This document shows positions 7,951 to 28,857 of a stretch of 29,773 nt of DNA, piece after piece (the stretch's first letter is position 1; every line of letters begins with the position of its first letter). The position numbers and the translations under genes were made by a program. Source of the DNA: a virus; the IMG/VR virus record IMGVR_UViG_3300044971_003252, positions 1-29,773 of that record. One strand, written 5' to 3'. A model generated the notes under the pieces. The model was not told where the DNA came from. It did not search any database and worked only from the letters and a program-made list of their open reading frames with translations.

Positions 7951-7975
7951 CAGCACAACTACGGCAGGAAAAGAT

Positions 7976-8048: not shown

Positions 8049-8056
8049 AAATTGGA

Positions 8057-15488: not shown

Positions 15489-15716
15489 TCATTTGCCCGT
15501 GAGGAGGTGGTCAGCCGGAACGTCCAGCGCTTCCGCGATGGCGTAGAGGGTGGCCGTGTTGGGGAAGCGCAGCCCGCGCTCGATCTCGGAGATGGAACCA
15601 ATGCCCACCTCCGCCCTGGAGGCTAACGCCTCCAAGGTCATGCTCTTGTCGATGCGCGTCTGCCTGATCCGGTTTCCCAGAAGGATGCGCTGCCTGAAAT
15701 TGGTCTTTTTTCCCAT
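15489..15716 (-). CDS. XRE-family helix-turn-helix regulator
   Basis: The 75-residue protein is a single Cro/CI-type HTH domain: LGNRIRQTRIDKSMTLEALA, SRAEVGIGSISEIERG and PNTATLYAIAEALDV. It would bind a short DNA dyad. It lies immediately upstream of the primase-helicase and below its own promoter, which carries a TTTCAGAA variant of the motif seen at other promoters, so it is a candidate for the protein reading that motif (inference). The ATG at 15716 was preferred over an in-frame start at 15776, which would lie upstream of the promoter. Confidence 0.88.
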   Translation of the reverse strand: MGKKTNFRQRILLGNRIRQTRIDKSMTLEALASRAEVGIGSISEIERGLRFPNTATLYAIAEALDVPADHLLTGK

Positions 15717-15731
15717 GATGATTGTTTCCGT

Positions 15732-15760
15732 ATTCTGAAAGGTAAAGGGTGCGGGGTCAA
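15732..15760 (-). promoter_or_regulatory. Promoter of the XRE regulator
   Basis: Minus strand: TTGACC (15760-15755), 17-base spacer and CAGAAT (15737-15732). TTTCAGAATACGGAAA covers the -10, a dyad-like TTTC...GAAA arrangement compatible with autorepression. The -35 overlaps the stop of the upstream gene. Confidence 0.55.
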
Positions 15761-16113
15761 GGGTTTTTATGTTCACCGATATTCAGATGAATCAAAACGG
15801 CCTGAAACCTCTCTGAAGCCGAGGCAGAGATAGCTTTGGCTACGCCCCCTCCACAGACTTTCTTCAGTACTCCTACATAACCAGACCAACACCCTGTGTG
15901 CTGCATCCACAGTTCTATTTCTCTTGTGGCGTTCAAGTCTAAGTCAAAGTTGGGGATCGGTGTTAACTCACTGGTGACTCCCCAATGATTTGCAAAGGGT
16001 GTATCCGCCCCTGGACGTATACCCGTGGGGGGAACGCAGGGGTTCGGGTCCAGGTAGATACTCGTCCACCCAATTTCTTTAGCCAAAGCGGCTATTTTCT
16101 CTCGTTGTGTCAT
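15757..16113 (-). CDS. Phage_ABA_S-like small protein
   Basis: The 118-residue protein has an N-terminal helix (TQREKIAALAKEIGW), a proline-rich middle and IPNFDLDLNATREIELWM near the centre, resembling the L/IPxYxxDLNAxxE motif of the phage ABA-sandwich domain, ending with SASERFQAVLIHLN. The family is frequent in phages and of unknown role. The ATG at 16113 overlaps the upstream stop (ATGA) and follows GAGGAGGAG. The end overlaps the XRE promoter. Confidence 0.65.
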   Translation of the reverse strand: MTQREKIAALAKEIGWTSIYLDPNPCVPPTGIRPGADTPFANHWGVTSELTPIPNFDLDLNATREIELWMQHTGCWSGYVGVLKKVCGGGVAKAISASASERFQAVLIHLNIGEHKNP

Positions 16114-16469
16114 ACGAAGCACTCCTCCTCGGACGGTTTGTTGTTGGACACGGCAGGCACCTGGACGACGCAGACCATGCGTGCCCCGGCCCTGTCAACG
16201 AGGGACACAGACCAGCCCTGCTCGGTGCAGGCTCGGATCGCCTCGGCAACCTTGTCAGCAGCCAGGACGACGGTGCGGAACGGGCCGTTGTCGTCCGAAC
16301 CAAGGGTGGTCGGCAGCACGCGGCGCTTCATCGCGGTGACAATGCGCTCGGCGTCCTGGCCGTAGGTGACGTAGCCGTCGGAGTCGGAAAGGATCGCCAC
16401 GTCAGCGCCACGGGCGGCGAGGCGGATGGAGTCGTGACGGCGTTGGAAGTATTGGAGGGCGGGGTTCAT
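16110..16469 (-). CDS. Small protein resembling the MutS N-terminal domain
   Basis: The 119-residue protein reads MNPALQYFQRRHDSIRL, then VAILSDSDGYVTYGQDAERI, VVLAADKVAEAIRACTEQGWSVSLVD. The order (TPxLxQY-like start, FxxxGDFYExFGxDA-like middle, then a lysine/isoleucine helix and GYxVAxxEQ-like strand) recalls the mismatch-recognition domain I of MutS, but the Phe-x-Glu mismatch-reading motif is not intact. It could be a derived DNA-binding adaptor or an unrelated alpha/beta protein. It starts 10 bases after a promoter-like element and ends with EEECFV over a strong ribosome site for the next gene. Confidence 0.6.
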   Translation of the reverse strand: MNPALQYFQRRHDSIRLAARGADVAILSDSDGYVTYGQDAERIVTAMKRRVLPTTLGSDDNGPFRTVVLAADKVAEAIRACTEQGWSVSLVDRAGARMVCVVQVPAVSNNKPSEEECFV

Positions 16470-16477
16470 TTGCGGGT

Positions 16478-16505
16478 AGGTTTAATCTGTTTTCAGAAAG
16501 TGCAA
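16478..16505 (-). promoter_or_regulatory. Promoter-like element with TTTCTGAAAA motif
   Basis: Minus strand: TTGCAC (16505-16500) directly followed by TTTCTGAAAACAGATTAAAC. The arrangement matches the element at 12785-12816 almost base for base. The -10 is not obvious; TTAAAC is the nearest AT-rich hexamer. Confidence 0.5.
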
Positions 16506-16513
16506 GGCCAAAG

Positions 16514-16840
16514 TCAATCGGGGATGGATTCAAGGTGGAGGCGGTGGGCTTCGCGCCTGCGGTTCTCACGGTCGATGAAGTTGAACAGCACCTGCCACTC
16601 GTCGGCGGAGAGCGAGCTGTTCTCGTTGTAGATGACGTTGGTGAGCCTGTGCTTGTTGAAGCCACGGGCGGAACTGAGCTTCTTCAACCCGACCCTGGAC
16701 TCGCGCATGGTGGAGGAGAGCATGGAGCGCAGGACGGCGTAGCGCCTAGCACGCATCTTCTTCGCCTTGGCGATGCAGTTGTCGAGCTTGCGAAGCTCGG
16801 AGATGATCTGTTCGGGGGTGGCTGTTGCGGGTGTGGTCAT
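16514..16840 (-). CDS. Hypothetical basic helical protein
   Basis: The 108-residue protein is basic and mostly helical: EQIISELRKLDNCIAKAKKM, RESRVGLKKLSSARGFNKHRL, then LSADEWQVLFNFIDRENRRR. The RGFNKHRLTNVIYNENSSLSADEW part resembles a small XRE-like DNA-binding helix pair, but this is weak. The ATG at 16840 has no Shine-Dalgarno and follows CTACCCCTACC. It is the last gene before the promoter at 16505. Confidence 0.65.
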   Translation of the reverse strand: MTTPATATPEQIISELRKLDNCIAKAKKMRARRYAVLRSMLSSTMRESRVGLKKLSSARGFNKHRLTNVIYNENSSLSADEWQVLFNFIDRENRRREAHRLHLESIPD

Positions 16841-16998
16841 GGTAGGGGTAGGTGTCGTTCAGAAGCGCTTGTTCAACCTCGCCTGTGCCCTCGTATTCAA
16901 GGGGCTTGTCGGGGAATTGTTCGGGATCGGTTTCAGGGCTTGGTCGGCGGGGCATCGTGGAGGAAGGGTTCGAGTTTGGTGAGGGCGGGGTTGGACAT
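16746..16998 (-). CDS. Uncertain short ORFs between 16,840 and 17,008
   Basis: Two overlapping frames fill this gap: a 21-codon frame from ATG 16998 (MSNPALTKLEPFLHDAPPTKP) and a 69-codon frame from ATG 16955 (MPRRPSPETDPEQFPDKPLEYEG...) that runs 95 bases into the next gene. Neither has a ribosome site. They may be one gene split by a frameshift near 16,940, or non-coding. The span given covers both. Confidence 0.25.
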
Positions 16999-17008
16999 GG
17001 GGGTGGTA

Positions 17009-17425
17009 TCAGTGGCTGTTGGTTGTGGTGAGGTTGTGCCATTCTTTGCAGATGGATTCGAGGGTTTCGTCAGCGGTAATAACTTCGTCGGGAACGCACC
17101 CTATTTTATCTGCTGGAGAAATAGTTTCCAGCCCCTCAATCGCCAGCAGCAGGCATTTGCACGCGGCAGGTGACATGGTGCGGGCGTAGGCGATGAAGGC
17201 GGCGGTTGCTAGGGCTTCTTCTGGGTCTTTGCCTCGTATGCCGCCGTCATCATTGTCATCATCCCTCAAACCAAAAAGGACAACGGTCTTTTTCTCGTCA
17301 AAAGTGCTGATGCCTGGGCGCTCGTTTGAGGATTGCTGATCAACTTTCCAAGGCCCAGGAGTCGCCGCCTCGGCCTCCGCGATGTGCGCTTTGAGCGCGG
17401 ATTTGATTTGTTCGATGGTGGTCAT
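17009..17425 (-). CDS. Ead/Ea22-like phage accessory protein
   Basis: The 138-residue protein has the TPGPW motif (EAATPGPWKVDQ) and ALATAAFIAYARTMSPAACKCLLLAIEGLE, the pattern of the Ead/Ea22-like family found in many temperate and lytic phages. The function is unknown; some relatives sit in early accessory operons. The ATG at 17425 overlaps the upstream stop (CAACAATGA). A less GC-rich middle (GISTFDEKKTVVLFGLRDDDND) suggests a patchwork origin. Confidence 0.7.
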   Translation of the reverse strand: MTTIEQIKSALKAHIAEAEAATPGPWKVDQQSSNERPGISTFDEKKTVVLFGLRDDDNDDGGIRGKDPEEALATAAFIAYARTMSPAACKCLLLAIEGLETISPADKIGCVPDEVITADETLESICKEWHNLTTTNSH

Positions 17426-17799
17426 TGTTGTGGTGGGTAGATGTCGATGAAGTGGGTGTCGCTAGAGCATTTAAGTCGAGAAGTAGTCCAGCCAAATTTT
17501 GGGCTGTATTGACCATATATGCGCACGGCCCCATCCGGCACAGGCCCGGCCTCGGCAATGGGGCGCAGACGGAGGGCAGCGCGTTCAGCCAAAACATCCG
17601 ACAGTCGGCGGTTGGTGTCGTAATTTCTGCGCTCAACGTCAGCAATTTTTGACTCCAACTCTTTCGCCCTGGCCTCGGCGGCGATGGCGCGGCGTTCGAG
17701 GCGGCGAGCAAAGTCGGCTTTGACCATATATCCGCCAAATCTTTGTGTTTGGTTGGCTTCTTCAAGGTCGGTTTCTGGCGTTGGTGTTTCGGGTGTCAT
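17422..17799 (-). CDS. Coiled-coil accessory protein
   Basis: The 125-residue protein has a long predicted helix/coiled coil (ADFARRLERRAIAAEARAK...DVERRNYDTNRRLSDVLAERAALRL) followed by a short Pro/Tyr-rich C-terminal domain (YGQYSPKFGW). No family was recognised. The ATG at 17799 overlaps the upstream stop (ACACCATGA), which argues against a longer start at 17919. Confidence 0.65.
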   Translation of the reverse strand: MTPETPTPETDLEEANQTQRFGGYMVKADFARRLERRAIAAEARAKELESKIADVERRNYDTNRRLSDVLAERAALRLRPIAEAGPVPDGAVRIYGQYSPKFGWTTSRLKCSSDTHFIDIYPPQQ

Positions 17800-18083
17800 G
17801 GTGTGTTTCCTTTCTTGTGGTTCTCGTAGGAGGCTAGGGCTTGTTGCACAGCTCCTCTGGCAACTGAGACGTTGTTCATGTGTGCTCCATGACCAACATC
17901 CTCGATGAGTGACAGGCATTCGTCAGAGGCTTCCAAAGCCTCCGCCATCCTGTCAGCCAGTGCTGTCATGGCGGCGAGTTCGGTTTCAAGCTTTCTAGCA
18001 AACTCCGCCGACACGGGATCAGGCGGGTAGGACTTAGTTTTCTTGAGCCTTCGGCGCTCGGCATCAGTGCGAGGTGTTTTCAC
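17796..18083 (-). CDS. Small helical accessory protein
   Basis: The 95-residue protein begins with a basic TPRTDAERRRLKKTKSYPPDPVSAEFARKLE, then alternating helices (LADRMAEALEASDECLSLIED). The SAEFARKLE element resembles ADFARRLE in the next gene, hinting at related N-terminal parts. The start is GTG at 18083 in a GTGA overlap with the upstream stop. It ends GNTP followed by ATGA. Confidence 0.65.
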   Translation of the reverse strand: MKTPRTDAERRRLKKTKSYPPDPVSAEFARKLETELAAMTALADRMAEALEASDECLSLIEDVGHGAHMNNVSVARGAVQQALASYENHKKGNTP

Positions 18084-18358
18084 TTTGCACCTCCTTCCAG
18101 CGCGGCGATGAGGGCGTCGGCAATAGTGAGTGCTCCGGCAGCAATACCTTCAACAGTTGATTGGCATGTCGGGTCAGCGAGCATACCGAACATAGCTTCT
18201 TTTGCCAGCCGTTCGCGCCGTGCCTTGGCGATCATCTCGTCAAGCCAGGGCGTGCCGGAGCAGGGCTGGCCTGTGACAAGGGCGGCGTGCTCGATGGCTG
18301 AAAGCGATGCGTGCAGCCGATAGGGCGGAGTTGGTCTTGTTTGGTCGTTTTCTTTCAT
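18080..18358 (-). CDS. Hypothetical accessory protein
   Basis: The 92-residue protein has a polar N-terminus, PCSGTPWLDEMIAKARRERLAKEAMFGML in the middle and an alanine/isoleucine-rich C-terminus (AAGALTIADALIAALEGG). No family was recognised. The ATG at 18358 overlaps the upstream stop (ACACCATGA). It is in the same coupled string as its neighbours. Confidence 0.65.
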   Translation of the reverse strand: MKENDQTRPTPPYRLHASLSAIEHAALVTGQPCSGTPWLDEMIAKARRERLAKEAMFGMLADPTCQSTVEGIAAGALTIADALIAALEGGAK

Positions 18359-18549
18359 GGTGTTGGTTCCTTCCAGGTGAATGTTGTGTTTCCGAACTCG
18401 TCGCTGACCCAGGTGGCGAATCCGCGCTGGACGGCTTCGGCTTGCAATGTTCGCCCTTCTTCACCTCCTTTATAAAAGGCTGCTGCAAGCATAACTGCCA
18501 AGACAAAAAATACACAAGCGGCGATTAGCTTTTCGTCTCCTTGTCTCAC
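18355..18549 (-). CDS. Small single-span membrane protein
   Basis: The 64-residue protein has one strong transmembrane helix (LIAACVFFVLAVMLAAAFY) after a short charged N-terminus, then a soluble tail ending TTFTWKEPTP. The start is GTG at 18549, overlapping the upstream stop (AAGTGA) behind AAAGGAGGTGG. Size and topology would fit an accessory holin-like or superinfection protein, but no lysis gene is near. Confidence 0.65.
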   Translation of the reverse strand: MRQGDEKLIAACVFFVLAVMLAAAFYKGGEEGRTLQAEAVQRGFATWVSDEFGNTTFTWKEPTP

Positions 18550-18737
18550 TTCGCCACCTCCTTTCCAGGCTTGCTGCAATCTCCAAAGAAGCTACAAGCC
18601 ATAAGGCTAATGGCTGACCCAATGATAATTCCTGCGCACCAACCAAAATTAAGCGCTTCGTTTTCCTCACCAAGGGCGCTAACAAAGTTTATGGCGGATA
18701 CACCGCATACAAATAGGAAAATTTGATGTTTCTTCAT
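18546..18737 (-). CDS. Small two-span membrane protein
   Basis: The 63-residue protein has two hydrophobic stretches (HQIFLFVCGVSAINFVSAL and WCAGIIIGSAISLMACSFF) and the tail GDCSKPGKEVAK. The tail shares 17 nearly identical bases with the end of the next gene upstream. The ATG at 18737 follows CAACTGAACAACACC. The role is unknown; the topology resembles small holins. Confidence 0.65.
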   Translation of the reverse strand: MKKHQIFLFVCGVSAINFVSALGEENEALNFGWCAGIIIGSAISLMACSFFGDCSKPGKEVAK

Positions 18738-18756
18738 GGTGTTGTTCAGTTGTTGG

Positions 18757-19329
18757 TTACTTCCCAGGCTTGCTGCATGACCTCCATGCGTTTGCGTCCC
18801 AGCGTCCGGTGTCGGGGATGGAGGTGTTGATTTTTGCCGCATCTTGAAGAAGCTCAAAACTGAACTTTTGAATCAACGGATTGTTTGGCTCAGTTTCAGG
18901 AAAACCTACTCCGTCAGACGATACGCATAGGGGCGTGATCCACAAAGCCTTCGCCCCAAAAGTGAACACACTCCCCGGCGGGCAGTCCTCCGGCCCCAGC
19001 GGCACCTGGGCGGCAGGCTCGGCCTCGGCAATGGACGGGCTTTCGCGGCGTGGCAGGGCGGCGAGGAAACGCTTAATCTCGGACACAAAAGGCATGGTAT
19101 GGTTAGCTGATCGCCAAGCGTCGGCAATTTCCATGTCTGTATATTCACCGCCGCCAGCCAGGAAGGGCGCGAGGGCCGGGTTGCTGATGGCGTGCTGGAT
19201 GACGGCGCGGCGGTCTTTAGCTTGATTTTTCCAATCGTCAAAAATGTTTGAAGTAGTGAGCACAATTTTAGAGGATGGGAGAAACGCCTCATCAGCGACT
19301 TGTTGGAGTGTGTCTTGTGGGATGTTCAT
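18757..19329 (-). CDS. Hypothetical accessory protein
   Basis: The 190-residue protein is of unknown family. It has an N-terminal helical part (QDTLQQVADEAFLPSSK), a KDRRAVIQHAISNPALAPF region, an acidic-proline linker (ESPSIAEAEPAAQVPLGPEDC) and a short C-terminal domain ending RSCSKPGK. PGSVFTFGAKALWITPL looks like a beta region. The ATG at 19329 follows GAATGCT, a variant of the AAGCT[A/C]TGA junction motif. Confidence 0.65.
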   Translation of the reverse strand: MNIPQDTLQQVADEAFLPSSKIVLTTSNIFDDWKNQAKDRRAVIQHAISNPALAPFLAGGGEYTDMEIADAWRSANHTMPFVSEIKRFLAALPRRESPSIAEAEPAAQVPLGPEDCPPGSVFTFGAKALWITPLCVSSDGVGFPETEPNNPLIQKFSFELLQDAAKINTSIPDTGRWDANAWRSCSKPGK

Positions 19330-19366
19330 AGCATTCACTTTTCGGTTCGGGGTTGCGTGGGGTGGT

Positions 19367-19729
19367 TCAGACAAAGCTGTCGGGTTGCGGAGGGGAGGGA
19401 CGGGGGCGCTTGCGCTTCGGCCCGCGCTTCTTTTTGAGCTTCAGCTTCTTCAGCCGGTGATACTTGGCCGTGAGGGCGGTGCAGCCAATGACTGCGGCGT
19501 TCTCAGCGTCCGTCAGTGACGGGTCGAACAGCGTCCAGTCGTAAACTCCTGGGCGTCCGCTGCGGGGCAGGTGCGCCGTCCTGGGGCGCTTCTTGTCGCG
19601 TCGGAACTCATGCACAATCCGCCAGGGTATGCCTGTGAGATGGGCGATGGACTCCGTGCGGTTCATCTTCCAGATTTCGTCAGGGATGTCGGCCAGACGT
19701 GCGTGCTGGGATTTGCGGAGGGGGGTCAT
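19367..19729 (-). CDS. Basic DNA-binding-like protein
   Basis: The 120-residue protein has a possible HTH (ESIAHLTGIPWRIVHEFRRD), a second one (DAENAAVIGCTALTAKYHRL) and a very basic tail (KKLKLKKKRGPKRKRPRPS). It probably binds nucleic acid; no family was assigned. The ATG at 19729 overlaps the upstream stop (ACACCATGA), which argues against a start at 19891. Confidence 0.7.
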   Translation of the reverse strand: MTPLRKSQHARLADIPDEIWKMNRTESIAHLTGIPWRIVHEFRRDKKRPRTAHLPRSGRPGVYDWTLFDPSLTDAENAAVIGCTALTAKYHRLKKLKLKKKRGPKRKRPRPSPPQPDSFV

Positions 19730-19911
19730 GGTGTGATAAAGCGCTTGTCGGCGGGGATTCCTATAAGTGTTTTGCGGAGTAAGGACTTGCGCCCTCTGGC
19801 GACAATGTTTTTGGCCCTTCTTTCGCGGAGGTGTTCTGCAAGTTCGACGTGTCCAGCAGCAAAAAGCTCGGATGTTGTCATCTTGTTCCAATGGCTTCTT
19901 GGTCTTTTCAT
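19726..19911 (-). CDS. Small basic protein
   Basis: The 61-residue protein is basic and helical (SELFAAGHVELAEHLRERRAKN, RGRKSLLRKTL) with no recognised family. The ATG at 19911 follows AAAGCTCTGAACACCC, a copy of the junction motif; Met11 at 19881 is an alternative start. It is coupled by ATGA to the next gene. Confidence 0.6.
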   Translation of the reverse strand: MKRPRSHWNKMTTSELFAAGHVELAEHLRERRAKNIVARGRKSLLRKTLIGIPADKRFITP

Positions 19912-19933
19912 GGGTGTTCAGAGCTTTGACATT

Positions 19934-20236
19934 TCATTTCCAAGTCGGGCGGACTCCCCTCGCCAGCGGGAAACGACGGCGGAGGACACGGGGGCGGGGA
20001 AGGGGCTTTTTGGCTGGGGTGATCTCGGTGCCGTCGGGGTTGACGGGGTACCAGCCTGCACGCTCAACAAGGGCCCACGCCCAACAACACGCTTCGTCAT
20101 GCGCATTGTCGTATTTCTCCTCTCCTGACCTTTCTTCGATAGTGAGGATGCGAACGTGCTGCTCAGGTTCACAGGGGCATTTGCCGTCAGCAGGCCAGGG
20201 ATACCAAGGAAGGCCGCAGGATGTGAAGGTGTTCAT
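19934..20236 (-). CDS. Hypothetical cysteine- and tryptophan-rich protein
   Basis: The 100-residue protein has CGLPWYPWPADGKCPCEPEQHV at the start, then a DEACCWAWALVERAGWYPV core and a basic Arg-rich tail. The spacing of Cys residues could hold a metal. No family was recognised. It starts at ATG 20236 in the context AGAATACC and has its own promoter 18 bases upstream. Confidence 0.65.
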   Translation of the reverse strand: MNTFTSCGLPWYPWPADGKCPCEPEQHVRILTIEERSGEEKYDNAHDEACCWAWALVERAGWYPVNPDGTEITPAKKPLPRPRVLRRRFPLARGVRPTWK

Positions 20237-20253
20237 GGTATTCTATTTTCAGA

Positions 20254-20282
20254 AATATAGGTGACGTGATTCACTGTGTCAA
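20254..20282 (-). promoter_or_regulatory. Internal promoter with downstream TTTCTGAAAA motif
   Basis: Minus strand: TTGACA (20282-20277), 17-base spacer and TATATT (20259-20254). TTTCTGAAAA (20255-20246) begins at the end of the -10, so here the motif covers the start point instead of the spacer. The promoter splits the accessory operon in two. Confidence 0.7.
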
Positions 20283-20289
20283 GGGCGAC

Positions 20290-20529
20290 TCAGAGCTTCG
20301 GGTTTTCGGCGGCGGGTTGCGAGGGGGCCAGGGGCGTGAGTGGACGGGTTGCAGAAGGGCGGGTGGACGCCTGGTAACGGGCGTGGGCAGAGAGGGCATT
20401 GTGCGCCTCCTCAATCATCTCAACGTCCAGGGCGAAGTTGGGAAGCAGGAGGTGGGCGTTGAGGAGACGCCGGACGGCGGATGCCAGAGCGTCGGCGACG
20501 TCGGCGGGGACGGGCGGGGGAGGGGTCAT
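20290..20529 (-). CDS. Hypothetical Ala/Pro-rich protein
   Basis: The 79-residue protein has a helical middle (VADALASAVRRLLNAHLLLPNFALDVEMIEEAHNALS) between Pro-rich ends. Its last residues (SQPAAENPKL) are encoded by bases that look like the shared junction module (CGCAACCCG...AAGCTCTGA), so the frame seems to run through a former leader. The ATG at 20529 follows GAAGCTCTGAACGACC. Confidence 0.55.
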   Translation of the reverse strand: MTPPPPVPADVADALASAVRRLLNAHLLLPNFALDVEMIEEAHNALSAHARYQASTRPSATRPLTPLAPSQPAAENPKL

Positions 20530-20594
20530 GGTCGTTCAGAGCTTCAGGTTAATGTTGGCGGGTTGCTTGTGCTGGGTGGAGATGGAAGGGCGGG
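20530..20594 (-). repeat. Junction module copy 1
   Basis: After the stop in CTGTAACCCG, the minus strand reads CCACCCAGCACAAGCAACCCG, a short variable part and GAAGCTCTGA, then the ATG. It is a clear copy of the intergenic module shared by five or more junctions. Confidence 0.6.
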
Positions 20595-20813
20595 TTACAG
20601 GGGAGGCGGAGGAGGCGGCAGGGTTTTAGCCCGTTCGCACTCGGCAAAGGCAATTAGAGAAAGTATGGTTCCTGCCCGTTGCCTGCCAGGTCCGAACGGG
20701 TCGAGATATGCCACGGCGTCAATCCTGCCTTCCTCGTCAAAGTAGAAGCTGGCAATCCTGCCGTTGTCACGGGCTTGCTTTTGGAGTTTGAGGAGTTCGT
20801 TTCGGTCGGTCAT
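20595..20813 (-). CDS. Hypothetical accessory protein with polyproline tail
   Basis: The 72-residue protein starts RNELLKLQKQARDNGRIASFYFDEEGRIDAVAYL, a compact helix-beta pattern, and ends in PPPPPPL. No family was recognised. The ATG at 20813 follows ACCGACAGCT, another AGCTATGA junction. The final Leu-stop (CTGTAA) is shared with several neighbours. Confidence 0.6.
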   Translation of the reverse strand: MTDRNELLKLQKQARDNGRIASFYFDEEGRIDAVAYLDPFGPGRQRAGTILSLIAFAECERAKTLPPPPPPL

Positions 20814-20830
20814 AGCTGTCGGTTTTCGTT

Positions 20831-21112
20831 TCAGGGTTTCTTGTGCTTGTTGTCGGTGATGGCGTTGACGGGCTGCGGATGAGTGTGCTCGATGTACCCG
20901 TCCTTTTCACTGTTGCGAAGGGCCAGGATGCAGCCAAGCATGGCATTCATGGCCCCATTGGTCATGGCGATGTCGGTGAAGGTCTTGCCGTTGTCCCTGC
21001 TTGTGGACAGAAGCCAGTTTCCTTTCTTGTCGCGGAACACTTCGATCCTTGCGCGGGATTTTTTCTTCACCAGAACGGCGCAGGTGACGGGTTTGACGAA
21101 TTTCTTGCTCAT
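20831..21112 (-). CDS. Hypothetical basic protein
   Basis: The 93-residue protein has MSKKFVKPVTCAVLVKKKSRARIEVF, a beta-rich NWLLSTSRDNGKTFTDI segment and AMNAMLGCILALRNSE. It is possibly a small beta-barrel; no family was recognised. The ATG at 21112 lies in CAAAGCTATGAGC. Its C-terminal HKKP-stop is encoded by CACAAGAAACCCTGA, resembling the ACAAGCAACCC core of the junction module. Confidence 0.65.
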   Translation of the reverse strand: MSKKFVKPVTCAVLVKKKSRARIEVFRDKKGNWLLSTSRDNGKTFTDIAMTNGAMNAMLGCILALRNSEKDGYIEHTHPQPVNAITDNKHKKP

Positions 21113-21167
21113 AGCTTTGGGATTTGTGGTGCGGGTTGCGTTGTCTGGGATCAATGGGTTGGACGGG
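21113..21167 (-). repeat. Junction module copy 2
   Basis: Minus strand: TAACCCGTCCAACCCATTGA, CAACGCAACCCG, then CCCAAAGCTATGA. It aligns with copies 1 and 3 at both ends, with variable middle bases. Confidence 0.6.
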
Positions 21168-21383
21168 TTATCGAAGGGCGTCAGGATCAGACACGGTTTT
21201 GCCCTCCAGGTAAAGGTTCAGCGTGTCAATCTGAGCCTGGAGCCTGTCGATTCGCCGTTGCAACTCCGCCTTGGTCTTGTCGATGCCTTCGAGAGGAAAC
21301 ATCAGGTTCCTTGCTGGCGTCTTGATGTGGAGGTATCCATTGCTGGAAAAATGCTTGTTCGGGTTTTCTTGTGCCGTGGTCAT
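21168..21383 (-). CDS. Small coiled-coil protein
   Basis: The 71-residue protein has a short polar N-terminus and a coiled-coil C-terminal half (KTKAELQRRIDRLQAQIDTLNLYLEG). It may form dimers or a tether; no family was recognised. The ATG at 21383 is in GTCAAAGCTATGACC, the best-preserved junction start. Confidence 0.65.
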   Translation of the reverse strand: MTTAQENPNKHFSSNGYLHIKTPARNLMFPLEGIDKTKAELQRRIDRLQAQIDTLNLYLEGKTVSDPDALR

Positions 21384-21438
21384 AGCTTTGACTTTCTGAT
21401 TTTGGGTTGCTTGTGCTGGGTTCAATGGGGTGGACGGG
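21384..21438 (-). repeat. Junction module copy 3 (type copy)
   Basis: Minus strand after CTGTAA: CCCGTCCACCCCATTGA, CCCAGCACAAGCAACCC, a short variable part, CAAAGCTATGA. Its parts can be matched in copies 1, 2, 4 and 5. Confidence 0.65.
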
Positions 21439-21666
21439 TTACAGGAGGGGGCGGAGGTAGCGCAGGCCGGACAGGGCGATGCTGCGGACGGGGAACCCAT
21501 GGCAGACCACGGGAGTGATGAACGCCCCCTGCGGCATGTCGGCCTGGGTGCAATGATCCGTCGAGCGGATCATCTCACCTTCAGGAAGGACTAGGAACCG
21601 GCGGCCGGTGCGGTTGCACGTCTCGAGCTGGGGAGGGGGAGGGGCGGGGAGGATGGACGGAGGCAT
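21439..21666 (-). CDS. Hypothetical accessory protein
   Basis: The 75-residue protein has a Pro-rich N-terminus (SILPAPPPPQLE), then CNRTGRRFLVLPEGEMIRS and GAFITPVVCHGFPVRSIALSGLRYL. No family was recognised. The start at 21666 is four codons after the CTG of AAAGCTCTGA, in frame with it, so an ancestral ATG there may have become CTG. It ends LL-stop in CTGTAACCC. Confidence 0.6.
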   Translation of the reverse strand: MPPSILPAPPPPQLETCNRTGRRFLVLPEGEMIRSTDHCTQADMPQGAFITPVVCHGFPVRSIALSGLRYLRPLL

Positions 21667-21733
21667 GGGGGCGCTCAGAGCTTTGGGGTATTGGTGTCGG
21701 GTTGCGTGGGAAGGGTGAATGTGGGGCGGCGGG
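21667..21733 (-). repeat. Junction module copy 4
   Basis: Minus strand: CTGTAACCCGCC, then CCCACGCAACCCG, then CCCCAAAGCTCTGA. The start-codon A of other copies is replaced by C here, and the next gene starts 12 bases further on. Confidence 0.55.
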
Positions 21734-21913
21734 TTACAGGATGGAAAGAACCTGACGAGCGGATAGGCCGCGCCAGAAAGTCGAGTGGTCGGCACTACCG
21801 GGGAAGCGCTCAATTTCTTGAGCCGCCTGCCGACGAAGGGCTGCCTTGCGGCTTTTACTCAGGGCGCGAAACTGCTTTTCAAGGGTGGCGATGTATTCTT
21901 GAACGGTGTTCAT
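21734..21913 (-). CDS. Short helical accessory protein (59 aa)
   Basis: This short gene reads MNTVQEYIATLEKQFRALS, KSRKAALRRQAAQEIERF and ends SARQVLSIL. It is basic and helical, of unknown family. The ATG at 21913 is in GAAGCTATGAACACC and the stop in CTGTAACCC, so both ends carry the junction module and support a real gene despite its length. A different short protein cannot be excluded. Confidence 0.65.
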   Translation of the reverse strand: MNTVQEYIATLEKQFRALSKSRKAALRRQAAQEIERFPGSADHSTFWRGLSARQVLSIL

Positions 21914-21971
21914 AGCTTCAGGATTTCGTTTCAGGGTTGCGTTGTCTGGTTATGGGTGGGATTGTCGGTTA
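21914..21971 (-). repeat. Junction module copy 5
   Basis: Minus strand: CTGTAACCGACAATCCCACCC, CAACGCAACCC, then CCTGAAGCTATGA. The CTGTAA is out of frame with the upstream gene, whose stop is 25 bases earlier, suggesting a frameshift shortened that gene. Confidence 0.55.
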
Positions 21972-21993
21972 CAGGATGGAGGTATGGACGGGA

Positions 21994-22230
21994 TCAATCG
22001 CGCATCCACCACGCGGGGCGCCGGCGCTGGATGGCGGCCAGCCTTTCGCGCTCGTATGCGGCGCGCTCGTCGGCGGCCTGGGCGCGTCTCCTCTCAAGGG
22101 TTGAGAAGAGACGAGCGAGAGGGGCGGCGGTCACGTCGTCGGCGGTGTCCTGGGGCGGCGGGTCCGGCGGACGCTTGAACGGGGGGCCGGAGTCGGGGCG
22201 GAGGGGGAGAGAAGGCGGAAGGGGTGGCAT
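21994..22230 (-). CDS. Pro-rich/basic helical protein
   Basis: The 78-residue protein has a proline-rich first third (LPPSLPLRPDSGPPFKRPPDPPPQ) and a strongly basic helix (RLFSTLERRRAQAADERAAYERERLAAIQRRR). No family was recognised. It starts at ATG 22230 without a ribosome site. The junction module follows 25 bases after its stop. Confidence 0.55.
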   Translation of the reverse strand: MPPLPPSLPLRPDSGPPFKRPPDPPPQDTADDVTAAPLARLFSTLERRRAQAADERAAYERERLAAIQRRRPAWWMRD

Positions 22231-22243
22231 GGGGTGGCGTGGG

Positions 22244-22816
22244 TTAGGCGTTGCAAAACAGGGTGGATTCCATCTCTTCAGCCTCGGCGTGTTCTTCGGC
22301 TTCACGTTGTGCTTGCTCCTCTTTCTCGCGTGCCTCGCGTGCCTCGCGTTCATCGTCGGCGGCATCCTCGGCGAGCGAATCGGCGGCATGGGCGGCCTCG
22401 TCGGCGGTCTCATAAATGTCACACTCAACAAAAGATGCCATCCCCTCTCCCATCGTCCAGCCCGCCAGGAATCCGCGCCCCTTGGGGAGGGTGAACACGA
22501 GACCCCTGATTTTCTCATCGCGGTAGTCGTCCGTGAACCATCCCGTGTGACGGATGCGGACACCTTCCACCTCATCACAAAACTGCCAGCGGAGGCGGAA
22601 AGGCGCGGAGGAATCGTCCAGATAGAATCCCGTTCCTTTCCCGGCGTGTTCGGGGCGGGGGGCGTGATAGCAAGGTCCGCAGACGGGTTGCTTGTGCTGT
22701 CGGACACGACGCGCCTTGTCTCCACGGGGGAGGGTGGCAACCCAACGCGGCCAGGAGAAGCCAGCGAACGAGAAAGATGGGGCAGGAAGGGAGAAATGCG
22801 AGGTCAAAGGTTTCAT
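22244..22816 (-). CDS. Hypothetical accessory protein with acidic coiled-coil tail
   Basis: The 190-residue protein has an N-terminal cysteine-containing region (VCGPCYHAP), a beta-rich centre (GTGFYLDDSSAPFRLRW, GLVFTLPKGRGFLAGWTMGEGMASFVE) and a long acidic helix (AADDEREAREAREKEEQAQREAEE) near the end. The central part looks like a real globular domain, so the gene is convincing, but no family was recognised. The ATG at 22816 follows AACCTATGAAAC. Confidence 0.7.
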   Translation of the reverse strand: MKPLTSHFSLPAPSFSFAGFSWPRWVATLPRGDKARRVRQHKQPVCGPCYHAPRPEHAGKGTGFYLDDSSAPFRLRWQFCDEVEGVRIRHTGWFTDDYRDEKIRGLVFTLPKGRGFLAGWTMGEGMASFVECDIYETADEAAHAADSLAEDAADDEREAREAREKEEQAQREAEEHAEAEEMESTLFCNA

Positions 22817-22840
22817 AGGTTTAAGGGGTGGCGGGGTGAA

Positions 22841-23011
22841 TCAATGCGTGATGATGAACCAAACGAGACCGGCAACGGCCCCCCAGATGATCACGACTTC
22901 AAGCGCCTTACGGCGTCGGTAGTCGGCACGGCGGAGGTTAGGGAGGGGGCGAGGGCTGAGGTTGAGCATCTGGACGCGGGATTGGCGGAGGGTATCGGAG
23001 TGGCGTTTCAT
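22841..23011 (-). CDS. Short membrane protein (56 aa)
   Basis: The short protein has a basic N-terminal half (KRHSDTLRQSRVQMLNL...NLRRADYRRRKA) and one C-terminal transmembrane helix (LEVVIIWGAVAGLVWFIIT). Positive-inside orientation would leave the basic half in the cytoplasm. The ATG at 23011 follows CCGCAACCCGCCCACCC, a reduced copy of the junction leader, which supports the call. Confidence 0.65.
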   Translation of the reverse strand: MKRHSDTLRQSRVQMLNLSPRPLPNLRRADYRRRKALEVVIIWGAVAGLVWFIITH

Positions 23012-23037
23012 GGGTGGGCGGGTTGCGGGGTGGGGGT

Positions 23038-23403
23038 TTAGGCGTGCGCTTTAGCGAGTATCGCGTTTATTGGGTGTTCGATGTTCAAACCGTACGGGGG
23101 TGTGGTAGGCCAAGCGGGCAACTTGTCTGCATGGCGGTCGTGGTGCCTGAAAACATAGGTTGCCAGGGTGGTTTCGGTCTCCATGCCATCTTTCGCCGCC
23201 ACAGTCATGTAGCCAGACACCCTCCGCCCGTTAACCCTGACGGAAGCAGGGACGGAAAACCACGTGTCTGCCGTTTCAGCCAGTTCGGCGGCGCGAATGA
23301 CGCCATCCGAACAAAGCAGACGATGCCCGTTGCGAGGGTGAAGCCCCCAGGGCTGCGAGCGGGTGATGTGCGTTTTTCCAAGTGTGCGCTTTTGCGTGTT
23401 CAT
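23038..23403 (-). CDS. Hypothetical accessory protein
   Basis: The 121-residue protein has a short GHRLLCSDGVIRAAELAETADTWFSVPASVRVNGRRVSGYMTVAA core that looks beta-rich, followed by ATYVFRHHDRHADKLPAW. No family was recognised. The ATG at 23403 follows five tandem 9-bp repeats ending CGCAACCC. Confidence 0.65.
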   Translation of the reverse strand: MNTQKRTLGKTHITRSQPWGLHPRNGHRLLCSDGVIRAAELAETADTWFSVPASVRVNGRRVSGYMTVAAKDGMETETTLATYVFRHHDRHADKLPAWPTTPPYGLNIEHPINAILAKAHA

Positions 23404-23448
23404 GGGTTGCGAGGGTTGCGAGGGTTGCGAGGGTTGCGAGGGTTGCGG
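23404..23448 (-). repeat. Tandem 9-bp repeat in a leader (5 copies)
   Basis: On the plus strand GGGTTGCGA is repeated, on the minus strand CGCAACCCT, filling the whole gap between two genes. It is an expansion of the CGCAACCC core found once in neighbouring leaders, most likely by polymerase slippage. Confidence 0.8.
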
Positions 23449-23451
23449 GGG

Positions 23452-23688
23452 TTACAGGTTAGGACGAATCAGGCGCATGTACTCGACGTCCAAGGTGGAC
23501 ATGAGGCGGCGGTACCTTTCCGCGTCCTGGGGAGTACATCCGCGCTTTTTAGACCGCGCGTTGAAATCTTTGAAGGCGGCGCGGTTTTGGCGCGCCCAAT
23601 CTTTGAAGCTGGAAAAACCACGGGCGGCGCGGGAGCGGGAGGCAAATTCCTTGTCGTCGGCAAAGGGGATTTCATTCAGGTTGCTCAT
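23452..23688 (-). CDS. Small basic protein
   Basis: The 78-residue protein is basic (SRSRAARGFSSFKDWARQNRAAFKDFNARSKKRG) with a helical C-terminus (DAERYRRLMSTLDVEYMRLI). No family was recognised. The ATG at 23688 follows CTAAAACACT. It ends NL-stop in CTGTAACCC, as other module-bounded genes do. Confidence 0.65.
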   Translation of the reverse strand: MSNLNEIPFADDKEFASRSRAARGFSSFKDWARQNRAAFKDFNARSKKRGCTPQDAERYRRLMSTLDVEYMRLIRPNL

Positions 23689-23708
23689 AGTGTTTTAGGG
23701 ATGGATGA

Positions 23709-24149
23709 TTACGCGTGCGCAATGTGAAGCAAGGCTTCCGGGTGGCCCAACTCCGCCGCAATGGCGTGCATGGCCTCGCAAACGGCGGACTCTCCCACGC
23801 CGTTGATCGAGCGGGACAACGTGAAGCCAGCGTTGCGGATGGCCTCCCCGGCGGCGGCGGACATTTTGCAATAGCCGTAGCCCCCGGCGGATCCGCTGCC
23901 GGAAGTGTGGACTCCTTCCTGGATTTGAGGGGTATCAAACGGGTGGCGCGTGCCCGGGACGTGGACCCAAAGACAGGCATAACAAACCGTGCCGGGCCAA
24001 TAGAGGCGCAGGGTGGCGACGGCGTGAGTCTCGTTCGGACGGTACTCGGACGGGATGACAAGGGCAAACTCCTTATAGAATCCTCCCTTTTCCTTGCGGT
24101 GGCTGGAGTTGAACTTGGTTTTTGCGGCGGGGTTGTAGGTGGCTTTCAT
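23709..24149 (-). CDS. Hypothetical accessory protein
   Basis: The 146-residue protein has KGGFYKEFALVIPSEYRPNETHAVATLRLYWPGTVCYACLWVHVPG, a beta-rich domain, then a glycine-rich SGSGSAGGYGYCKMSAAAGEAIRNAGFTLSRSINGVGE and a helical end. The whole is well-formed and resembles phage proteins of about this size, but no role is known to me. The ATG at 24149 follows AAGCAACCCGCCCCACCC. Confidence 0.7.
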   Translation of the reverse strand: MKATYNPAAKTKFNSSHRKEKGGFYKEFALVIPSEYRPNETHAVATLRLYWPGTVCYACLWVHVPGTRHPFDTPQIQEGVHTSGSGSAGGYGYCKMSAAAGEAIRNAGFTLSRSINGVGESAVCEAMHAIAAELGHPEALLHIAHA

Positions 24150-24184
24150 GGGTGGGGCGGGTTGCTTGTGGGATGTGGATGGAA

Positions 24185-24388
24185 TCAACGGGTGGAGACG
24201 GTGCGGACGGAATCGGCGAGCATGGAGAGGGACAGGCTCAAAAGCTGGCCGTGTGTTTGGCGGACGAACGCGGGGGACTCGGGGTCATGGGCGACCCGGG
24301 CAAACATGCCGATGGCCGAGGGGGAGGCGAGGCGTGACCAATGGCCAGCCGGGGCGGCTGGGGCGGGGAGACGGGAGGCGGAGTACAT
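24185..24388 (-). CDS. First gene of the leftward operon, hypothetical
   Basis: The 67-residue protein (SASRLPAPAAPAGHWSRL...SLSLSMLADSVRTVSTR) is of low complexity at its start. It is the first open frame after the divergent hub, behind 7-bp leader repeats and a candidate promoter. Its ATG at 24388 has no ribosome site. Moderate confidence only. Confidence 0.5.
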   Translation of the reverse strand: MYSASRLPAPAAPAGHWSRLASPSAIGMFARVAHDPESPAFVRQTHGQLLSLSLSMLADSVRTVSTR

Positions 24389-24392
24389 ATAT

Positions 24393-24439
24393 GGTGGAGG
24401 GTGGAGGGTGGAGGGTGTGGGGTGTGGGGTGTGGGGTGG
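24393..24439 (-). repeat. 7-bp leader repeats
   Basis: Three GGTGGAG-type and three GGTGTGG-type heptamers occur in tandem between promoter and first gene. The RNA would be C-rich (CCTCCAC, CCACACC) and unstructured. Confidence 0.7.
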
Positions 24440-24472
24440 TTAGTGCTGTGACCGTTTTGCGGTCATGTGGCA

Positions 24473-24501
24473 AGATTAAAGCATATCGTGGAATAAATCA
24501 A
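24473..24501 (-). promoter_or_regulatory. Candidate promoter of the leftward operon
   Basis: Minus strand: TTGATT (24501-24496), 17-base spacer and TAATCT (24478-24473); TTTAAT shifted by two bases is an alternative -10. The GACCG/CGGTC dyad (24446-24463) lies just downstream near the expected start point and could be an operator. Confidence 0.5.
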
Positions 24502-24583
24502 CAACACATTTTACTTTTTTATTTTGAGCCGGGCTTTTCGCACATCTCACAATATGCCTGCGGGGGACGGCGGTAGGATCAAT

Positions 24584-24690
24584 GGACAAAATCGAGCGGT
24601 TTTTGGCAGCTCAATCAACCTTGCGGACAAAAACGAGCGGTTTTTGGCAGATCAATCAACCTTGCGGACAAAAACGATCGGTTTTTGTCC
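24584..24690. repeat. Iteron-like dyads with 41-bp period
   Basis: Copies start at 24584, 24625 and 24666. Each has CAAAAAC/GTTTTTG-type arms around GAKCG (first copy with one change), followed in copies 1 and 2 by GGCAG-CTCAATCAACCTTGC. Copy 3 has extended perfect 10-bp arms GGACAAAAAC/GTTTTTGTCC. Four turns of DNA separate the dyads, so bound dimers would sit on one face. Confidence 0.75.
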
Positions 24691-24836
24691 GTGACTCGGT
24701 TTCATGGCCTGATTTCAATCTGCTGCCATTTGAGCAAAGACTTTAGTTTTCTTTTGGCATTGATCCTGCTTTACCTGTTCAAATGATCAATTTTAACCCT
24801 TAAAACCGGGGTTTTATGCTGAAGGGTGACAAAAAG

Positions 24837-25024
24837 GGTGACAAAATCAGGTTTTAGAGGGAGGAAGTGACGCGCAGAAAAAATTGTTATACAGTATAAC
24901 GTGATACGGATGTGATACAGTGTAACGGATGGGTATTATTGTATCACGTTATACTGTATAACAAATATTTGTGAGGCTAGGACAGGATATGGAAAACGGG
25001 TTTTAACCGTGATTTTTGTCACCT
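24837..25024. repeat. Nested inverted repeat with 24-bp perfect inner arms
   Basis: Inner arms 24884-24907 and 24941-24964 are perfect 24-bp complements; each contains the 15-bp palindrome GTTATAC-A/T-GTATAAC (24886-24900, 24948-24962). The 33-base loop holds GTGATACAGTGTAACGGAT, a degenerate third copy. Outer arms GGTGACAAAA-TCA (24837 on) and its complement ending TTTTTGTCACC (25024) are partly matched. GTTATAC recurs at the start of the next gene (25426-25432). Confidence 0.85.
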
Positions 25025-25054
25025 TGGCAGAATTGACGGTTGAGAGAGCGCTTT

Positions 25055-25082
25055 GTGATACGGATTACGGATTACGGATTAC
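25055..25082 (+). repeat. GTGATACGGAT copy and GGATTAC heptamers
   Basis: GTGATACGGAT (25055-25065) repeats the sequence at 24901-24911 in the inverted repeat. It runs into three head-to-tail GGATTAC units (25062-25082). Confidence 0.7.
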
Positions 25083-25100
25083 AGGGTTGACGTGATGCTA

Positions 25101-25388
25101 CATTGAAGTGGAGCAGCATTGAAGTGGAGCAGCATTGAAGTGGAGCAGCGTTGAGGTAGAGCAGCGTTGAGGTAGAGCAGCGTTGAGGTAGAGCAGCGTT
25201 GAGGTAGAGCAGCATTGAAGTGGAGCAGCGTTGAGGTAGAGCAGCGTTGAGGTAGAGCAGCGTTGAGGTAGAGCAGCGTTGAGGTGGAGCAGCGTTGAGG
25301 TAGAGCAGCGTTGAGGTAGAGCAGCGTTGAGGTGGAGCAGCGTTGAGGTAGAGCAGCGTTGAGGTAGAGCAGCGTTGAGGTAGAGCAG
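25101..25388 (+). repeat. 18 tandem copies of a 16-bp repeat
   Basis: Two main unit types occur: CATTGAAGTGGAGCAG (copies 1-3 and 8) and CGTTGAGGTAGAGCAG (most others; copies 12 and 15 have GGTGGAG). The two types differ at three positions. No spacers, so it is not a CRISPR. The array ends 54 bases before the ribbon-helix-helix gene, the place expected for a site bound by its product. Confidence 0.95.
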
Positions 25389-25442
25389 ACATCCCCTGCT
25401 AGACGCTGTTGACGAGGTGCGTTTTTGTTATACGCTCAAAGC

Positions 25443-25886
25443 ATGGCTAGAACCAAATCCATATTGACGAAAGTGCCCATGAATCCCTGGCGGGCTGATC
25501 CTGCGATGGCTGAAGCCGTTGACGCGTTGCAAGCTAAGACGGGCCGCACGTATACATCCTTGATGGAGCAGGCTGTGACTTTGCTGCTGTCTCAACGGGG
25601 GGTTGAGTTGAGCGGAGGCACTCTTGCTGGTGATGATCCTGCGGCGATTGAGGAAGCACGGGCTAAAGCGGCGGAGGAGAAGCGATTGAGAGAGGAAGCC
25701 GCGAAAGCTGAAGCAGCCAGGAAAGCGAAAGAGGATATTTTCCGAATCCGTAAAGCCTGGAATGACAACTTCAGGGCAAGGGGCGAGGTTCCCAAGAATG
25801 GTTTTGCGGCTGAGAACGAGGAAGAAGAGGAAGCGGAGCGGCGGGCGATTGAGGCTGAGAAAGCAGCACGGGAGGCTTTTGTATGA
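25443..25886 (+). CDS. Ribbon-helix-helix/coiled-coil protein
   Basis: The 147-residue protein begins MARTKSILTKVPMNPWRAD, compatible with a ribbon strand, followed by two helices (AMAEAVDALQAKTG, TYTSLMEQAVTLLLSQRG) as in Arc/CopG/ParR proteins. The rest is a highly charged coiled coil (EEARAKAAEEKRLREEAAK...). It probably binds DNA as a dimer; the adjacent 16-bp repeats and GTTATAC sequences are candidate sites. It could be an autoregulator, a partition adaptor or a terminase accessory. The ATG at 25443 was preferred over a TTG at 25425. It overlaps the next gene by ATGA behind GGAGG. Confidence 0.7.
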   Translation: MARTKSILTKVPMNPWRADPAMAEAVDALQAKTGRTYTSLMEQAVTLLLSQRGVELSGGTLAGDDPAAIEEARAKAAEEKRLREEAAKAEAARKAKEDIFRIRKAWNDNFRARGEVPKNGFAAENEEEEEAERRAIEAEKAAREAFV

Positions 25887-26389
25887 GCGGCATCCCCGTC
25901 CTCAGTCCTGAAGATTGGCAGCGGCTGCGCGGGCTGTCTATTAAAGGTGTCCCCGATTCAACCCTAGCCGAACAGTTCAGCGTCCGCATTGGGACAATCA
26001 TTCAAAGACGCCGGAATGACCAGGAATGGCTTACGCTTTGGAGGGCTGGAGCGCCTCGCCCTGGTCGGCCAAACCAGCAAATTGAAAAAGTGCGGACGTC
26101 CAGCCATGATATAGTGACCGCCTCCCTTGAGGAGCTTTCCGCAGAAAACCCGTTGTTAGTAGCATCTTACGCGCATTCCAAGATCAAGGAAGCCGTCCAG
26201 ACTGACAGCCTCCCCACCCCTTCCTCTTGGGGAGAGCTGAAAACAGCCTCCGAAATATTCCGCAAAGCCGTCGGCCTGGACAAGGATCAAGCCCCCGTCC
26301 AGATAAACCTATGGTCAACCAATCAGGACGGTCTTGCTTCCGGTCCCGTCGTCGATGTGACGCCGAGCGAGCCGGAAGGGTGGGTGTAG
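25883..26389 (+). CDS. Small-terminase-like HTH protein
   Basis: The 168-residue protein has an N-terminal HTH (LRGLSIKGVPDSTLAEQFSVRIGTIIQRRRNDQEW), a helical middle (DIVTASLEELSAENPLLVASYAHSKIKEA) and SWGELKTASEIFRKAVGLDKD, a layout seen in phage small terminase subunits, which recognise the packaging site. The oddity is its place: rightward, while the large subunit lies 25 kb away on the other strand. A repressor or other HTH protein is an alternative. It starts in ATGA overlap with the previous gene and ends EGWV-stop. Confidence 0.5.
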   Translation: MSGIPVLSPEDWQRLRGLSIKGVPDSTLAEQFSVRIGTIIQRRRNDQEWLTLWRAGAPRPGRPNQQIEKVRTSSHDIVTASLEELSAENPLLVASYAHSKIKEAVQTDSLPTPSSWGELKTASEIFRKAVGLDKDQAPVQINLWSTNQDGLASGPVVDVTPSEPEGWV

Positions 26390-27876: not shown

Positions 27877-28857
27877 ATGACCAAGAAACAACTCGCCATG
27901 GACGTCATCGAGCAGTTCCCAGACCTGCCGAACAGGACGATTGCTCGAAAGCTGATGGCGGAGCACCCCACGGTGTTTCTTACCGAGGATTCCGCCCGCC
28001 TTGTCGTGCGCGACATTCGAGGAGCCAAGGGACAACGTGATCGTCACAATGCCGTGCCCAGTATGAAACGCCCTCTTGGATGGCAGCAGAACGTGATGCC
28101 CAGGGCCATCTCCCAGGATCGTCCTGATCTGGTCATCAAGGGTGCGCACCGGACGCTGATCCTGTCGGACATCCACATCCCGTATCACGACGAAACGGCC
28201 CTCAACGCAGCCATTGAGTACGGCAGGAAGAACAAGCCTGACATCATCATCCTGAATGGTGACATCGGGGACTTCTACGCGGTGAGCCGTCACGACAAGG
28301 ACCCGCGTCGCAGCCTCGCCGAGGAGCTTGACGCCATCCGTCAGTTCCTGTTCTGGCTGCGCAAACAGTTTCCAAAAACCCGCATCCTGTTCAAGATCGG
28401 GAATCATGAGGACAGGATGGAGCGGTTCCTGGTCAAGAATGCGCCCGTGCTCCTCGGCACCAGCGACTTTGAAGTGTCAACGCTGCTCAAGTTCGACGAA
28501 CTCAAGATTGAGTGCGTCGGCAGCCTGAACCTCATTCGCCTTGGCAAGCTGTGCATCTACCACGGGCATGAGCTGCCGCAGGGGATGTCGAGTCCGGTGA
28601 ATCCGGCCAGGGGCATGTGGATGCGGGTGCAGGAGACTCTTCTGGCAGGGCACTGGCACCGGGTGTCGGATCACACGGAGAAAACGGGGATTTCAGGAAA
28701 GGTGAGTTCCTGCTGGTCAACCGGGTGCCTGTGCGATCTGAAGCCGGATTACGCAAGGGTCAATCGCTGGAGCCACGGATTTGCCTTTGTCACCACCGAC
28801 AATAATGGCGAGTTTGAAGTCAGGAACCACAGGATTCTCAACGGCAAGGTTTACTGA
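27877..28857 (+). CDS. Calcineurin-like metallophosphoesterase
   Basis: The 326-residue protein has an N-terminal helical domain of about 85 residues (KKQLAMDVIEQFPDLPNRTIARKLM, HTH-like) and a metallophosphoesterase domain with all five motifs: LSDIHIPYH (D-x-H), NGDIGDF (GD), GNHED (GNHE), YHGHE and GHWHR (GHxH). It should hydrolyse phosphodiesters or phosphomonoesters with two metal ions; the substrate is unknown. Phage relatives are often near replication genes and may act on nucleic acid ends or cyclic nucleotides. The metal ligands appear complete. Confidence 0.93.
   Translation: MTKKQLAMDVIEQFPDLPNRTIARKLMAEHPTVFLTEDSARLVVRDIRGAKGQRDRHNAVPSMKRPLGWQQNVMPRAISQDRPDLVIKGAHRTLILSDIHIPYHDETALNAAIEYGRKNKPDIIILNGDIGDFYAVSRHDKDPRRSLAEELDAIRQFLFWLRKQFPKTRILFKIGNHEDRMERFLVKNAPVLLGTSDFEVSTLLKFDELKIECVGSLNLIRLGKLCIYHGHELPQGMSSPVNPARGMWMRVQETLLAGHWHRVSDHTEKTGISGKVSSCWSTGCLCDLKPDYARVNRWSHGFAFVTTDNNGEFEVRNHRILNGKVY

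Follow-up and report, generated by a model that had tools for sequence, protein, structure and literature searches.

The window analysed here, an IMG/VR viral fragment of 29,773 bases without end repeats, contains between two divergent gene blocks a repeat-rich kilobase (24389-25442) that is probably a divergent early/late transcription control region operating with phage-encoded regulators. This reading is favoured by the location of the kilobase in the gap between the blocks, by its enrichment in the half-site GTKATAC and by dyad spacings of 62 and 41 bp. Further support may come from a pair of the same dyads, with the same 62-bp spacing, near the late/early junction of other phages and from the retention of an XRE gene in the closest relative.

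Gene layout and flanking proteins

The left end of the window is occupied by a partial large-terminase gene (terL), whose full-length version in a relative scores as terminase large subunit (phrog_2). The genes of the leftward block code for a polymerase A, a gp2.5-like single-strand binding protein, an exonuclease, a primase-helicase and an XRE regulator, and this block is best read as an early/replication operon with terL at its far end. To the right of 25,442 all genes are rightward, namely a probable ribbon-helix-helix gene, a 168-aa orphan, an HNH endonuclease and a phosphoesterase, and structural genes presumably follow the phosphoesterase in the same operon. The AT skew switches sign at the kilobase between the divergent blocks, an operon-wise switch that is due to gene orientation. 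The flanking genes and the XRE gene are the following:

15489-15776, minus strand: XRE-type HTH protein, before the primase gene in the leftward operon
23709-24188, minus strand: leftward gene near the region, phrog_7028, unknown function
25443-25886, plus strand: probable ribbon-helix-helix protein with a charged helical C-terminus (sub-threshold profile match)
25883-26389, plus strand: 168-aa orphan, small-terminase-like in layout only

The ribbon-helix-helix gene proposed in the earlier note is backed by a match to Pfam RHH_1, but this match is sub-threshold (15.3 bits for a cut-off of 20.5). Antitox_RHH is also below its cut-off, the structure model contains two helices after a low-confidence start, and the only match recovered was to a tail fibre (36% identity over 47 aa, E 0.7). 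The protein is a candidate binder of the 16-bp array or of the heptads described below. The adjacent gene at 25883 had been called small-terminase-like, and its product matched small terminases neither by family or sequence nor by fold; a low-confidence model (pLDDT 56) of it predicts helices followed by C-terminal strands. The XRE protein is the only HTH_3 protein of the window above the cut-off and has a 67% identical copy in the relative G001. Its gene is located 9 kb from the putative operators, and no repressor gene lies directly beside them.

Several other features of the window were recorded. A tRNA-Leu (CAA) is encoded at 7975-8049, inside the leftward operon. Several minus-strand proteins (1216-2224, 2706-5229, 10804-11982) carry EEWI or a similar WI/WV tail at the C-terminus; where the stop codon overlaps the next ATG, as in some of them, the tail resembles the Shine-Dalgarno sequence of the next gene read in frame. 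The metallophosphoesterase at 27877-28857 has relatives of 64-71% identity in about 30 viral contigs with differing neighbouring genes, and the gene is apparently exchanged widely.

The closest relative, G001 (31,556 bp), overlaps the window from the XRE gene through the primase and polymerase genes to terL, carries convergent, presumably structural genes beyond terL, and ends short of the repeat region. A second relative, L087 (11.6 kb, 90% polymerase identity), starts just before the polymerase gene, so that the region is not covered. Searches with the primase and polymerase led to these two, neither of which spans the repeat region, and searches with the ribbon-helix-helix, 25883, 23709 and array sequences returned no relatives. 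All 80 loci kept from a phosphoesterase search have other gene neighbourhoods, and a distant blastn search of the region against phages and plasmids gave nothing useful. A 30-bp coding repeat of 5.3 copies was observed in a gene downstream of terL in L086 (14075-14232) and L087 (10380-10540).

Repeat content of the kilobase

The five repeat types that the earlier note placed in the kilobase are all found there, at the positions it gave. Repeated 9-mers cover 0.49 (direct) and 0.15 (inverted) of the kilobase, values matched by none of 500 dinucleotide shuffles, whether the array was included or excluded. The kilobase is the densest part of the window in direct repeats; a comparable direct-repeat content was reached in 13 of the 4506 frames of other fetched phage DNA, and the one repeat-rich example inspected among these was coding. 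The kilobase is indeed gene-free, as had been claimed: no open reading frame of at least 60 aa lies wholly within it, apart from a minus-strand frame through the array (25072-25392), which was judged to be a by-product of the stop-free repeat. The repeats are thus non-coding, real and far beyond chance. They comprise:

24393-24439, minus strand: C-rich 7-bp repeats CCACCCT / CCACACC (leftward mRNA), directly before ATG 24388
24446-24464, no strand assigned: short palindrome TGACCG-TTTTG-CGGTCA of the presumed leftward leader, read directly
24584-24687, no strand assigned: three near-palindromes CAAAAACGANCGGTTTTTG (24587, 24628, 24669), 2.5 copies of a 41-bp unit, putative operator type B
24822-24845, plus strand: two copies of AAGGGTGACAAA
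24884-24964, no strand assigned: putative operator cluster A, with dyads GTTATACAGTATAAC, GTGATACAGTGTAAC and GTTATACTGTATAAC
24886-24900: dyad GTTATACAGTATAAC
24912-24926: weaker dyad GTGATACAGTGTAAC
24948-24962: dyad GTTATACTGTATAAC
25055-25082, plus strand: GTGATAC half-site, then three GGATTAC heptads (3.4 copies at 25059-25082)
25103-25390, plus strand: 18 head-to-tail 16-bp units TTGAGGTAGAGCAGCG (17.9 copies at 25103-25388)
25424-25433, plus strand: isolated putative operator half-site TTTGTTATAC, some 10 bp upstream of the ribbon-helix-helix start codon

The description of these repeats as five systems did not hold, as three of the five share one half-site and the heptamer leader represents a class found before many leftward genes. 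This leader is present at 24393-24439 as described, but is not specific to the region. Minus-strand copies of the motif GCAACCC number 19 in the window, against two on the plus strand; most of the copies stand before genes of the 19-24 kb block, and a 9-bp C-rich unit is repeated five times (5.6 copies) directly before ATG 23403. Because GCAACCC-type leaders precede many leftward genes, the 24393-24439 leader is a member of this C-rich class rather than a component of the intergenic region. In the minus-strand genes of 16000-24400, C-rich leaders abut many start codons without an obvious Shine-Dalgarno sequence. The palindrome at 24446-24464 is a candidate hairpin or operator, and the AAGGGTGACAAA pair has a companion in an inverted GGTGACAAAA copy at 25014-25023.

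Operator-like dyads and the 16-bp array

The three dyads of cluster A (24886, 24912, 24948) and the nested inverted repeat belong to a single putative operator cluster built on the 7-bp half-site GTKATAC. The arms of the inverted repeat lie at 24875-24907 and 24941-24973, of which 24 bp are perfect (24884-24907 and 24941-24964), making it the longest short-spaced inverted repeat of the window; as single-stranded DNA it folds strongly (z -8.2). The outer dyads (24886 and 24948) are perfect over 15 bp, are placed 62 bp apart from start to start, about six helical turns, and enclose an AT-rich TATTAT core, while the successive site spacings are 26 and 36 bp. Two or more similar putative dyad operators are therefore found between the divergent operons. 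The half-site itself occurs 13 times in the 29.8-kb window and nine of these copies fall in the kilobase, where 0.19 are expected from simulations with local composition; none of 3000 Markov simulations gave more than three copies. Outside the inverted repeat it is found at 25055, where it heads the GGATTAC heptads, and at 25427.

Rfam matches on the inverted repeat were eukaryotic microRNA models below their gathering scores and were attributed to the hairpin shape. A likeness to the HigA3 operator was set aside, being confined to a GTTATAC half within a palindrome that was not shifted in that study; LexA was also considered as an explanation of the dyads and not adopted. The exact 15-mers of the dyads were not found in the literature searched.

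The 41-bp-spaced dyads, about four helical turns apart, are most likely a second operator type, distinct from cluster A, and were absent from all other fetched loci. The 16-bp array is a site type separate from operators A and B. Its units vary only by A/G at three positions, with the exception of the last, degenerate unit (the 18th), and this pattern would suggest homogenisation by recombination or slippage. A linked AAGTGG type was seen in units 1-3 and 8. The array ends about 53 bp before the ribbon-helix-helix start codon, so that an iteron array of 18 x 16 bp stands upstream of that gene. A two-unit pattern of the 16-bp sequence had no match in other viral contigs. An apparent likeness to AGCAGTTGAG runs beside the dyads of L091 and L095 was rejected, as it was not significant relative to the rest of that genome.

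The putative operator pair in another phage family

The window carries GTTATACNGTATAAC twice at 62 bp from start to start. When 2.9 million viral contigs were scanned for pairs of TTATACNGTATAA dyads separated by 20-50 bp, seven contigs were retrieved, two from an AT-rich lineage with a 47-bp element and five from one otherwise different family. In these five (L090, L091 and L094-L096, corresponding to G003-G007), GTTATACNGTATAAC pairs are spaced by exactly 62 bp, in two different places; the pair pattern was built to include the spacing of the window itself, and the chance of one exact agreement is about 1 in 31. A closely similar pair pattern had no match in 84,980 prokaryote genomes.

The family otherwise differs from the window. 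Its terL proteins share 42-47% identity with those of the Pelagibacter phages HTVC027P and HTVC023P and of the Planktothrix phage Pag-Yong1, and significant protein likeness to the window is limited to generic enzymes (polymerase, helicase, HNH) and to a single short, weak match. The exact GTTATACNGTATAAC was seen neither in the first 50 kb of HTVC027P, where one site has two mismatches, nor in Pag-Yong1, where no such site was seen either. The nine exact sites of G003 all fall in a stretch of about 8 kb next to the terL-led block, on the early-gene side, and in L096 one pair is located between a divergent gene and a gene in the small-terminase position next to terL. The scarcity of near-misses of the 15-mer in this family speaks for what would be strong selection on its sequence. 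Similarity of the flanks beyond the dyads is borderline and not significant (27 of 500 shuffles).

Each contig of this family has 5-10 copies of the exact 15-bp palindrome GTTATACNGTATAAC and hardly any near-misses; in L091, L094, L095, L096, L102 and L105 (G003-G007) the copies apparently precede early-block genes.

The missing prokaryote match and the comparable junctions together suggest a phage-borne operator with a phage-encoded regulator. The XRE protein as binder of operator A and its GTKATAC half-sites is a guess, because its gene is 9 kb away and because no HTH_3 protein was found in the G003-G007 family. Proteins of HTH_17/HTH_7 type are encoded in the G003 family. The switch function mentioned in the earlier note fits these data, given operator-like dyads with a common half-site between divergent operons and the same pair near a late/early junction elsewhere. 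A broader proposal, that otherwise different phage lineages share a cassette made of a GTTATACNGTATAAC pair at a fixed 62 bp, located at the early/late junction and served by a phage-encoded regulator, and that in the window this cassette sits among a second operator set and an array of 18 iterons in a composite control centre, is tentative and rather doubtful at this stage.

Possible alternative functions of the region

Origin, partition and packaging roles had also been proposed for the kilobase and are not supported by the present data, which cover two fragments, the window and G001. A replication origin, at which the primase-helicase or another initiator would melt an AT-rich stretch accompanied by iterons and the large inverted repeat, and where transcription across the G-rich array could also form an R-loop, is unlikely. 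Iterons and an AT-rich stretch are both found (24471-25102 has 39-47% GC for 58% in the window), the 24-bp inverted repeat folds strongly as a single strand and the cumulative GC skew of the window peaks near 26 kb. However, the DnaA box TTATNCACA is absent from the window, although a phage initiator would not need one, and the skew is limited to that part of the leftward block which lies near the region. Since the skew is local and is close to zero both in the distal 8 kb of the window (-0.03) and in the shared part of G001, whose operons have values of 0.03 and -0.01, there is no replichore signature. A packaging site (pac or cos), formed by the 16-bp array and recognised by a small terminase encoded at 25883, is still less probable. 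In many phages the packaging site is located in or before terS, and the array does precede, by about 0.5 kb, a gene whose layout resembles that of a small terminase; however, the 25883 protein lacks a confirmed homologue, terL sits at the distal end of the leftward operon, and the array adjoins the ribbon-helix-helix gene rather than terS.

Least credible is a partition centromere of a plasmid-like prophage, in which the ribbon-helix-helix protein would act on the iteron array as in type II parR/parC or type Ib systems. The N-terminal ribbon-helix-helix, the helical C-terminus and the upstream 18-unit array fit the anatomy described in PMC5016525, but the period is 16 bp and not 7 or 10-11 bp, no motor gene is adjacent, and ParA was found neither in the window nor in G001. 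A ParM search was uninformative, its control being empty, and no integrase was seen in the window or G001, both fragments. For the array alone, a selectively neutral minisatellite generated by replication slippage beside an ordinary promoter is possible, though on the doubtful side, and would be compatible with a control-region explanation of the dyads. The near-identical head-to-tail units without spacers, their A/G changes at three positions and the lack of matches in other viral contigs point this way; on the other hand, the 16-bp phase is perfect, without indels across 18 copies, and the array sits directly before a probable DNA-binding protein gene. On its own, the kilobase does not decide where this phage group has its origin or packaging site.

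Proposed control model and comparison with known systems

For the preferred reading of a divergent control region, we infer protein-site pairing, looping, promoters and direction of regulation as follows. A phage-encoded regulator, possibly the XRE protein, would bind the GTKATAC half-sites. With spacings of about six (62 bp) and four (41 bp) helical turns, dimers bound to the dyads would line up on the same face of the helix, so that looping or cooperative occlusion would be possible; two dimers on the 62-bp-spaced dyads could in this way cover the AT-rich core or exclude it in a loop, and this core would be a natural promoter position. The 24912 dyad and the half-sites at 25055 and 25427 may spread or tune control toward the ribbon-helix-helix gene, and a second regulator would occupy the three 41-bp-spaced dyads beside the leftward operon. 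Ribbon-helix-helix proteins commonly repress themselves, and the one encoded here may do so by binding, upstream of its gene, the 16-bp array, the heptads or both. Against this reading stand the sub-threshold ribbon-helix-helix match, the fact that no relative spanning the region was found, and the promoter consensus: the divergent promoters claimed earlier were not borne out, a sigma-70 scan being at chance level (2 found, 1.2 expected).

The putative 62-bp operator pair common to two otherwise dissimilar phage groups is the most interesting by-product of this analysis. If it is a shared cassette, it would provide a sequence handle on the early/late switches of uncultured phages with hardly any proteins in common. 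The dense and distinct site types also make the kilobase a compact test case for several regulators acting on one intergenic region.

Compared with the G003-G007 family, the window shares the GTTATACNGTATAAC pairs 62 bp apart near a terL-led late/early junction. In that family, however, the 15-mer is also dispersed and its central base is C/G, whereas it is A/T in the window; the 41-bp dyads were not found there, and the heptads and 16-bp array were not recognised. With lambda cosB and SPP1 pac the region shares repeats close to a possible terS gene, but here terL is far away and terS only putative. Ribbon-helix-helix proteins with iterons are known from type II parR/parC and type Ib omega/parS (PMC5016525, PMC9499535), which resemble the region in having an iteron array upstream of the gene of a ribbon-helix-helix candidate, but here the unit is 16 bp, the ribbon-helix-helix match sub-threshold and no motor protein was found. 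As in lambdoid-type operator regions, three dyads of about 15 bp lie between divergent operons and an XRE protein is encoded in the genome; the XRE gene is, however, 9 kb away, inside an operon, and the spacing is 26 and 36 bp (62 bp for the outer pair) instead of about 24 bp.
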